From positions 682,001 through 746,000 of the forward strand of contig NZ_JAFBBJ010000001.1 of assembly GCF_016907085.1 (NCBI RefSeq): 64,000 nucleotides of DNA, written 5' to 3'. Under the pieces are notes generated by a model. That model saw only the letters and a list, made by a program, of their open reading frames with translations, made no database searches and was not told the origin of the DNA. The stretch comes from Clavibacter michiganensis (GTDB taxonomy: Bacteria > Actinomycetota > Actinomycetes > Actinomycetales > Microbacteriaceae). A program made the translations under genes and the position numbers. Of the stretch, positions 40,175-42,186 are shown piece after piece. Each line of letters starts with the position of its first letter. Position 1 is the stretch's first letter.

Positions 40175-41455
40175 GTGCCCCTGCGCCTCGCCGTCGCCGC
40201 GGGACGGGCCGCCCGCTGGGCCGCCCGTCTCCGCGGCGGCGGATCCGCCGTGCCCGGCGTCGTCGCCCTCCGCCTCGAGCCCCGCTTCCTCGAGCGCACC
40301 ATCGCCGACCTGCCGCACGGCGTGGTCGCCGTCACCGGCTCCAACGGCAAGTCGACGACCACCCACATGCTCACCGCGGTGCTCCGCGCGCACGGGCTCC
40401 GCGTCTTCACGAACCCGTCCGGCGGGAACCTGCCGCAGGGCATCGCATCGGCCGTGCTCGCGGACGCCGACGCATCGGGCCGCCTGGACGCCGACGTCGC
40501 GGTCCTCGAGATCGACGAGGCGTACGGCGTCGCGCTCTCCGCGCTGCTCACCCCGCGCACGGTGCTCCTGCTCAACATCCAGATCGACCAGCTCAACCGG
40601 TTCCACGAGCCGGACCGCGTGGTCGGCATGCTCGAGCGCATCGCCGCCACGGCCACCGAGGCGGTCGTCGCCAACCGCGACGACGCGCACGTCAACGCCA
40701 TCGCCGCGCACACGGCGCGGTCCGGCCGCGCCGCGGTGGACTGGTTCGGCGTGTCCGAGGAGCTCCTCGGCGACAGCAAGCACGGGCTGGCGTCCGCCCC
40801 GCGGTTCGGCTCCGAGGACCCCGACCCGGTGCACGTCGACGCGGGCGTCGAGGCCGTGGCCCTCTCGCGTCGCGACGCCGTGTTCCGTCTGGCGTCCGGC
40901 GAACTCCCGGTGACGCTCCCGTCGCGCGGCCTGCACTACGCCGTCGACGCCGCTGGCGCGCTGGCGACGGCGCGCCGCGTGCTCGGCGACCGGTTCGACC
41001 CGGTCCGCGCTGCCGAGGGCCTGGGCTCCGTGGCTGCCGTGTACGGACGCGGCGAGATGCTGCGGGCGGGTGATGAGGACATCGAGATCATCATGATGAA
41101 GAACCCGGCGAGCCTGCAGATGAACCTCGACGCGCTGGGGGATCCGCCGGAGCAGGTGCTGCTCGCCGTCGACGACGGGACCCCCGACCCGTCGTGGATC
41201 TACGACACCGACCTCTCCGCGCTCACGCACGCGGACATCGTCTCGGGCACCAAGGGCTACCAGCTGGCCGTGCGCTTCGGCTACGAGGGCCTCGAGGTCG
41301 GCCGCGTGGAGCCGGACCTGCGCCGGGCGGTGCAGGCGTTCATCACGCTGGAGAAGCCGTCCCGCGGCGTCAAGACCATGATCGTCAACTACGAGCAGAT
41401 GATGGCGATCCGCCGCATCCTCGGCTACACGGACCTCGAGGGAGGCCCCGCGTGA
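40175..41455 (+). CDS. murT: MurT-like Mur ligase (lipid II D-Glu ligase subunit)
   Basis: A 426-residue Mur ligase family protein. The ATP loop TGSNGKSTTT is at residues 54-63; YGRGEM (290-295), MMKNPAS (307-313) and PDPSWIYD (337-344) match the conserved MurT C-terminal motifs, including the Asp proposed to be catalytic. The Cys4 zinc ribbon normally found around residues 195-235 is missing: the protein contains no Cys. MurT with GatD normally amidates the alpha-carboxyl of D-Glu in lipid II. It starts with GTG 3 nt after sigA and overlaps gatD by four bases. The ligase looks functional; its acceptor may differ from ammonia because the partner lacks glutaminase residues. Confidence 0.88.
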   Translation: MPLRLAVAAGRAARWAARLRGGGSAVPGVVALRLEPRFLERTIADLPHGVVAVTGSNGKSTTTHMLTAVLRAHGLRVFTNPSGGNLPQGIASAVLADADASGRLDADVAVLEIDEAYGVALSALLTPRTVLLLNIQIDQLNRFHEPDRVVGMLERIAATATEAVVANRDDAHVNAIAAHTARSGRAAVDWFGVSEELLGDSKHGLASAPRFGSEDPDPVHVDAGVEAVALSRRDAVFRLASGELPVTLPSRGLHYAVDAAGALATARRVLGDRFDPVRAAEGLGSVAAVYGRGEMLRAGDEDIEIIMMKNPASLQMNLDALGDPPEQVLLAVDDGTPDPSWIYDTDLSALTHADIVSGTKGYQLAVRFGYEGLEVGRVEPDLRRAVQAFITLEKPSRGVKTMIVNYEQMMAIRRILGYTDLEGGPA

Positions 41456-42186
41456 GCGACGCGCTGCGCATCCTGCACCTCTACCCCGATGAGCTCGGCA
41501 TCAACGGCGATCGCGGCAACGTGACCGTGCTCGTCGAGCGCGCGCGCATCCGCGGCATCCGCACGGAGGTCGTGCGTCACGCTCCGGGTGGCGGGGATCC
41601 GGGCGACGCCGACCTCGTGGTCATCGGCTCCGGGCCGCTCACCGCGCAGCGCGCCGTCCTGCCCGACCTCGTCGCGCACGCCCCGCACCTGGTCGGCCTC
41701 CGGGAGGCCGGCGTCCCGATCCTCGCGGTGGGCGGCGGTCTGCAGCTGCTGGGGGAGTCCGTGCGCCTCACCGACGGCGGCGAGCTCGTGGGCGCCGGCG
41801 TGCTGCCGGTGCGCACCACCCTGACGGCCGAGCGTCGCGTGGGCGACCTCGTGCTCGACACGCCGGACGGCGAGGTGGTCGGCTACGAGAACCACGGATC
41901 GACCCTCGACATCGGCGCGCACGCTCCGCTCGGCTCGGTCCGCGCGGGCTTCGGCAACGGCGGCCAGGGTGGCGGGGAGGGCGTCCGCGTCGGCGCCTCC
42001 ATCGGCACGCACCTCGGCGGCCCCGTCCTGGCGCTCAATCCGCGGCTCGCCGACGAGCTGCTGTCCGCCGCACTGGCGCGGCACGATCGGGAGCTGCCCG
42101 CCGACATCTCCGGGACGCTCGACCGGCTCGACGGCTGGGCGCGCGAGGCACGCGCCACCGTCATGGCTCGACCCGCCCACTACTGA
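41452..42186 (+). CDS. gatD: GatD-like glutamine amidotransferase with missing catalytic residues
   Basis: A 244-residue class I (CobB/CobQ-like) glutaminase-fold protein, partner of MurT. LHLYPDELGINGDRGNVTVL at residues 9-28 is the GatD N-terminal signature, shown here as its conserved start. The nucleophile motif, normally AVCGGYQLLG, reads AVGGGLQLLG with Gly94, and the catalytic His motif, normally GTYLHGP, reads GTHLGGP with Gly189; GYENHGS is retained. Both residues that hydrolyse glutamine are thus gone. It should bind MurT but not supply ammonia. The GTG overlaps the murT stop (GTGA). Start and frame are certain from the unbroken coding pattern. Confidence 0.88.
   Translation: MSDALRILHLYPDELGINGDRGNVTVLVERARIRGIRTEVVRHAPGGGDPGDADLVVIGSGPLTAQRAVLPDLVAHAPHLVGLREAGVPILAVGGGLQLLGESVRLTDGGELVGAGVLPVRTTLTAERRVGDLVLDTPDGEVVGYENHGSTLDIGAHAPLGSVRAGFGNGGQGGGEGVRVGASIGTHLGGPVLALNPRLADELLSAALARHDRELPADISGTLDRLDGWAREARATVMARPAHY

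Follow-up and report, generated by a model that had tools for sequence, protein, structure and literature searches.

The window analyzed here, a 64,000-nt stretch of the Clavibacter michiganensis genome, contains a murT-gatD gene pair on the forward strand. The MurT/GatD enzyme uses glutamine-derived ammonia to amidate the α-carboxyl group of D-Glu in lipid II. The murT gene (40175..41455, + strand) encodes a 426-aa ATP-dependent ligase of the Mur-ligase type, with the Pfam domains Mur_ligase_M and MurT_C. It is followed by gatD (41452..42186, + strand), which starts with GTG and encodes a 244-aa protein with a GATase_3 domain. The gatD start overlaps the murT stop by four bases, in agreement with a preliminary description of this locus, which had stated that the overlap is kept. 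The flanking genes were named by eye as those of a primary sigma factor and a type II topoisomerase B subunit. The window MurT has a Mur ligase fold, with both its central and its C-terminal domain, and lacks the four-cysteine zinc ribbon, and the fold of the window GatD matches 5n9m with a TM of 0.86. Both proteins score far below the cut-offs of the NCBIfam equivalog models (GatD, 110 of 450 bits; MurT, 106.7 of 800 bits).

Alignment to S. aureus GatD revealed that the position of Cys94 is occupied by Gly (codon GGC, 41731..41733, + strand), as is the position of His189 (codon GGC, 42016..42018, + strand), confirming that both catalytic residues are replaced, as had been described. The accompanying claim that the rest of the GatD signature is intact needs one correction: the channel-plugging Tyr of intact GatD (NxYGD) is Asn in the window protein (INGD); thus, the signature outside the Cys/His pair is not wholly intact. 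In the partner ligase, residue 137, which aligns with Arg135 of the S. pneumoniae ammonia gate, is Ile (40583..40585, + strand), and residue 407, a Thr in MurTs paired with an intact GatD, is Glu (41393..41395, + strand). Judged by its residues, the window GatD cannot be a Cys-His glutaminase. A second, intact GatD in the same genome, which had been named as a finding that would refute the proposed re-purposing, was looked for and not found by a GATase_3 search, the other three matches being PdxT, PurQ, and HisH. A FemAB profile gave zero matches in this genome.

The Gly/Gly pair is also present in two more Clavibacter genomes (L006 and L007), and in the closest named proteins, P0002, P0008, and P0009, all from Clavibacter, which are 92%, 85%, and 85% identical to the window GatD, respectively. 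A sequencing error is rejected because identical residues occur in these other Clavibacter sequences. The dN/dS ratios among three Clavibacter genomes (0.09-0.115 for gatD, and 0.05-0.06 for murT) indicate purifying selection on both genes and, together with the shared residues, exclude a strain-specific pseudogene.

Conserved and altered residues of MurT

In what follows, a GatD without Cys94 is called dead, and one that keeps both Cys94 and His189 is called intact. The MurT residues that serve ATP, Mg, and acceptor binding have been tested by mutation or inferred in S. pneumoniae (PMC6085368). In window numbering, residues K59, N85, E112, D114, E115, N134, R142, R292, and D338 were found to be invariant across 40 MurTs paired with intact GatDs and 96 MurTs of the usual dead class. 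The S. pneumoniae counterparts K59, N85, E110, D112, E113, N132, and R304 are kept in 40/40 and 96/96 rows, respectively. The residues for ATP, Mg, and acceptor, including an asparagine proposed to position the carboxylate of the acceptor, are therefore all present in the dead class, which bears out the earlier statement that the MurT ligase is intact.

The differences between the two classes concern the ammonia path and the C-terminal domain. The gate Arg is present in all 40 MurTs paired with an intact GatD versus none of the 96 of the usual dead class, and the gate Tyr of GatD is present in 43/43 intact versus 0/96 dead proteins; both gate residues are replaced in the window. The loop that precedes the equivalent of S. 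pneumoniae D355 has 12 residues in 40/40 MurTs of the intact class and 9 residues in 96/96 of the dead class. Position 407 is Thr in all 40 of the former, and Glu (49 rows) or Asp (47 rows) in all 96 of the latter; the MKN and FKN subclasses have Glu, and the QN and LKN subclasses Asp. In a large subclass (QN) of 34 of the 96 dead rows (e.g., L103, L109, and L115), the KNP motif has Gln instead of its conserved Lys, always together with Asp407.

In a structural model, position 407 opens the final helix of the C-terminal domain, directly after a strand. In MurE, the incoming lysine is held by two acids of this domain, for which MurT is said to have no equivalent there (PMC6085368). One possibility is that the acid at 407 supplies a MurE-like contact to an incoming amino acid, and we offer this as a lead; a profile alignment of MurT with MurE stops before the 407 region, and a forced alignment was not significant.

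A mapping of MurT subclass onto wall chemotype was considered and dropped. Clavibacter and Leifsonia, both with diaminobutyrate in their walls, have MurTs of the KNP class. Cryobacterium was assigned to the QNP class via its nearest GatD relative (L115), and its wall is also listed with diaminobutyrate (PMC7033078). Since diaminobutyrate occurs with both KNP and QNP, the diamino acid alone does not account for the subclass.

Distribution of dead GatD proteins

A first set of 139 GatD loci, found with the window protein as the query, comprised 113 from Microbacteriaceae and 26 from six further families in the same order. Cys94 is lost in 96 of the 113 Microbacteriaceae proteins (to Gly, Ala, Ser, Thr, Asn, or His) and the remaining 17 are intact, whereas all 26 GatDs read from the other families, drawn from 88 genomes with a match, are intact. 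The query itself is dead, which biased this set toward dead GatDs; therefore, 150 Microbacteriaceae genomes were re-searched with a mixed GatD profile, MurT_C, and a divergent-MurT profile, and an additional MurT profile was run on 38 genomes, mostly GatD-negative. The mixed GatD profile matched in 130/150 genomes. Among the 119 genomes read, 102 have dead GatDs only, 14 have intact GatDs only, and three have both (G054, G066, and G124); two further genomes (G038 and G141) were left unread. By these searches, 29 of the 150 genomes have neither a MurT nor a GatD of proper size, three of them being less than 90% complete. These include G001, G019, G020, G022, and G023 along with 24 others, and eight of the 29 share a genus with a genome that carries the pair.

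Among the best 120 matches to the window GatD, 116 are without Cys94 and four are intact. Named proteins place dead GatDs in Clavibacter, Leifsonia xyli, Cryobacterium sp., Microbacterium sp., and an unclassified Pseudoclavibacter, and near-identity to named GatDs assigns further dead ones to Planctomonas and Diaminobutyricibacter. Intact GatDs are found by name in Leucobacter and Lysinibacter sp. HNR; the wall of Lysinibacter is listed as being of unknown structure (PMC7033078). In the Kocuria family, where one protein query matched a GatD in 47 of 120 genomes and none in 73, all 30 GatDs read of the 47 keep both Cys and His. The His is less informative than the Cys: His189 is retained in 59 of the 96 dead Microbacteriaceae GatDs, so that Cys loss alone tracks, and the suggestion that His189 loss follows wall type is not supported.

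An intact MurT/GatD pair occurs alongside a dead one in four genomes, namely G054 (L017/L090), G066 (L071/L085), G124 (L016/L080), and G392 (L224 and L230), which would be good natural tests for a division of labor. In several small Microbacteriaceae genomes (G081, G144, G010, G013, G027, G092, and G095), GatD is eroding, with open frames of about 190-260 aa from which most motifs are gone (L290-L294, L301, and L302). Their matches to the GatD profile are as weak as E = 2e-5, and the adjoining MurT is about full length.

A tree of 162 MurT sequences placed the 96 usual dead rows of Microbacteriaceae in one clade (SH-aLRT 99), and a second dead clade (support 100) united 12 divergent Microbacteriaceae sequences with 14 from Bacillota, ten of them Eubacteriaceae. 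Intact-class Microbacteriaceae MurTs are scattered among those of other families, with at least five changes on starred branches, and the dead versus intact state requires two changes on the gene tree, which was built by a quick method that returned long-branch warnings. MurTs of the second clade have changes of their own (DER and KQENP), and show no consistent acid at 407. Each of the 12 Microbacteriaceae genomes with a second-clade MurT has one MurT_C match, which suggests that in this family one dead class stands in for the other. In a divergent class (L136, L138-L143, L298, and L299), the nucleophile site reads His-Asn (FTHNALEVLG or close) and the KNP motif is missing; most members of this class have a four-Cys zinc ribbon. 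The genus g53 of Microbacteriaceae (L296 and L297) has an Acetobacterium-like MurT/GatD (KQETPDTL), possibly acquired by horizontal transfer.

Within the Bacillota, E. limosum ATCC 8486 (G421) and A. woodii (G415) have dead GatDs only, of the second clade; the RnfC of G415 is identical over 443/443 residues to PDB 9eri_C, an A. woodii protein (PMC11889175). Of 40 Eubacteriaceae genomes, 30 were read, and 22 of these have dead GatDs only (Gly and Leu), seven have intact GatDs only, and one has both; seven matches, one of them a fragment, were left unread, and three genomes gave no match of GatD size. A protein search with a dead GatD from Eubacteriaceae returned 65 close relatives, all without the Cys and the His, three of which are named Mogibacterium. 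A scan of titled-record genomes found at least 44 loci with a GatD; among those listed, 39 are intact and five lack the Cys, four of the latter being from Bacillota metagenome-assembled genomes (titled Clostridia, Firmicutes, Bacillota, and Eubacteriaceae), and the fifth from a metagenome-assembled genome whose MurT is 51% identical to that of the window. In A. woodii and E. limosum (L360 and L361), murT-gatD lies in a row with mnmA and a gene named by eye as glmM-like, and a glmS-like gene, also named by eye, comes next in A. woodii. The MnmA-like gene was set aside as a partner, being a housekeeping tRNA thiolase.

Wall type and a putative bridge ligase

Group B peptidoglycan, in which the bridge sits on the α-carboxyl of D-Glu, has been recognized for some fifty years. 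Microbacteriaceae are thought to be group B throughout, and Erysipelothrix is group B as well. E. limosum and A. woodii are said to be classical group B Bacillota, a view attributed to Schleifer and Kandler in 1972 and to Kandler and Schoberth in 1979. In Micrococcus luteus, the D-Glu α-carboxyl carries Gly, and the Kocuria family was sampled with this species in view. The wall of E. limosum contains Ala, Glu, Lys, Orn, and Ser (PMC4791908).

The proposal that residue loss tracks wall type stands in part. Cys loss is usual in the Microbacteriaceae sampled and is seen in E. limosum and A. woodii, and Gly substitutions in group A species, which would have spoken against the link, were not encountered: no dead GatD was present among those read from lineages known as group A. 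A strict rule, however, is not supported. Six Leucobacter strains are listed with cross-link type B (PMC4804768), and the 120 best-matching proteins retrieved by a Leucobacter-type query all keep Cys and His. Two of the listed species, L. celer (P0139) and L. chromiiresistens (P0215), are among those with an intact GatD, yet are typed B. In addition, the 29 genomes without MurT/GatD belong to the same family, and dead GatDs occur in Clostridia and Mogibacterium metagenome-assembled genomes that are not known to be group B. Leucobacter, the MurT-less genomes, and these Clostridia may point to other routes to a type B wall, or to several structures hidden under one type, or to a link weaker than it looks.

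FemAB ligases build the bridges of group A walls, and their profile matched in 26 of the 150 Microbacteriaceae genomes. By class, these are 10/14 genomes with intact GatDs only, 0/3 with both, 9/104 with dead GatDs (two of the 104 being unread), and 7/29 without MurT. The difference between the intact and dead classes gave a Fisher p of 7e-7 by genome, and of 2e-5 by genus (9/11 versus 9/62), kinship being ignored in both. Only two independent pairs are available on the MurT tree, too few for an ancestry-corrected test. The Leucobacter-genus genomes G014 and G096 have several FemAB matches.

To our knowledge, no enzyme has been assigned to the joining of the group B bridge to D-Glu, and a literature search, with most subscription papers outside its reach, found none. 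We propose that MurT with a dead GatD is a glutaminase-free ligase that joins the bridge amino acid to the D-Glu α-carboxyl, a reading that we hold at a probability of roughly 55%. The D-Glu α-carboxyl of lipid II would be phosphorylated by MurT, and the acyl phosphate would be attacked by a free amino acid, through its amino group, in place of channeled ammonia, yielding the group B bridge. The bridge amino acid is D-diaminobutyrate in Clavibacter, and D-Orn, D-Lys, or Gly elsewhere. The lost gate residues (Arg and Tyr), the shorter loop next to GatD, and the invariant acid gained at 407 would reflect a change of substrate from ammonia to an amino acid, and GatD would be retained because MurT requires its partner as a scaffold. 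Mur ligases accept amino acids and, because the bridge is on the D-Glu α-carboxyl, ligation of an amino acid is the simplest reading. The wider claim, that both dead clades, including the one common to Bacillota and Microbacteriaceae, are group B bridge ligases, with the 407 acid helping to hold the diamino acid in the Microbacteriaceae class, is held more tentatively, at a little short of even odds.

The idea that a dead GatD serves as a scaffold is favored by work on S. aureus, where neither MurT nor GatD is active alone and the GatD C94G mutant loses glutamine-dependent activity, while NH3-dependent activity is unaffected at pH 8.5, as reported by Munch et al. (PMC3266927). This behavior indicates that a dead GatD can support an amine-fed MurT, and a natural dead GatD would be expected to act as the scaffold that a MurT fed by a free amine needs. 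The nucleophile substitution is identical to that of the window, and MurT in the mutant depends on free ammonia; however, C94G is a laboratory mutant, reported there with ammonia and not with amino acids (PMC3266927, in part), whereas the natural proteins are also changed at His189, at the gate, and at MurT residues.

The same mutant lends some weight to an alternative, in which the complex still amidates D-Glu using free cytoplasmic ammonia, GatD is structural only, and the bridge is attached by another enzyme. Amidation of this kind would also fit the genomes without the complex, if amidation is optional. Nevertheless, S. aureus MurT/GatD is described as having no NH3-dependent activity at pH 7.5 (PMC3266927), the ammonia-gate Arg and Tyr are gone, and the invariant acid at 407 would have no obvious use. 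The D-Glu α-carboxyl is moreover taken by the bridge in group B walls, and we consider amidation by free ammonia unlikely. A similarly low probability is given to a complex that does not make the group B bridge, but attaches a different amine or works on a different acceptor, such as a wall polymer precursor. The failure to find it in 29 of 150 genomes of a family regarded as group B throughout, sometimes within a genus, and the dead GatDs of Clostridia that are not known to be group B are in keeping with such a role, as are the strong differences among MurT classes (QNP, KNP, and KQENP), from which substrates may differ. The recurrence of the dead pair in E. limosum and A. woodii near the glmM-like genes, and the inverse relation to FemAB, instead point to the cross-linking of stem peptides. 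That the two genes are decaying relics of an amidase superfluous in group B walls is disfavored, and very improbable: the erosion of GatD in several small genomes and the 29 genomes that show neither gene would agree with decay, but dN/dS is 0.05-0.115, the ligase residues of MurT are invariant in 96 dead-class rows, murT and gatD remain adjacent, and the class-specific changes are themselves conserved.

The re-purposing of GatD and MurT for group B walls, as first suggested, is thus partly supported: dead GatD recurs in a separate clade, the MurT residues are kept, and intact GatD goes with FemAB, but no strict rule emerges. The separate dead clade, in the only other group B lineage reached, considerably strengthens this sequence-based reading.

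Comparison with known systems helps to place the putative ligase. The Clavibacter pair resembles the MurT/GatD isoglutaminyl synthases of S. aureus and S. pneumoniae in gene pair and order, in both folds, and in the ligase residues, including an Asp that matches D355 of S. pneumoniae MurT. It differs from them in lacking Cys94, His189, the gate Tyr, and the gate Arg, in the shorter MurT loop and the acid at 407, and in scores far below the equivalog cut-offs. FemAB/MurM-type ligases and the D-Asp ligase, which add interpeptide bridges to precursors of group A walls, act on the side chain of the diamino acid and have folds different from those of MurT/GatD. MurC-MurF and the pseudomurein ligases differ in that MurT works with a GatD partner and is described as consisting only of the Mur ligase central and C-terminal domains (PMC6085368).

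If the proposed bridge ligation is correct, the group B bridge step would have a named gene pair, present in harmless, workable organisms (E. limosum and A. woodii), and loss of its ammonia source, with the dead subunit retained, would have converted an amidotransferase into an amino-acid ligase. The name GatD would then have been passed on to proteins that lack the Cys/His catalytic pair: in UniRef, the Clavibacter protein P0009 carries a name beginning 'Lipid II isoglutaminyl synthase (gluta', and the names of P0002 and P0008 begin 'Lipid II isoglutaminyl syn'.
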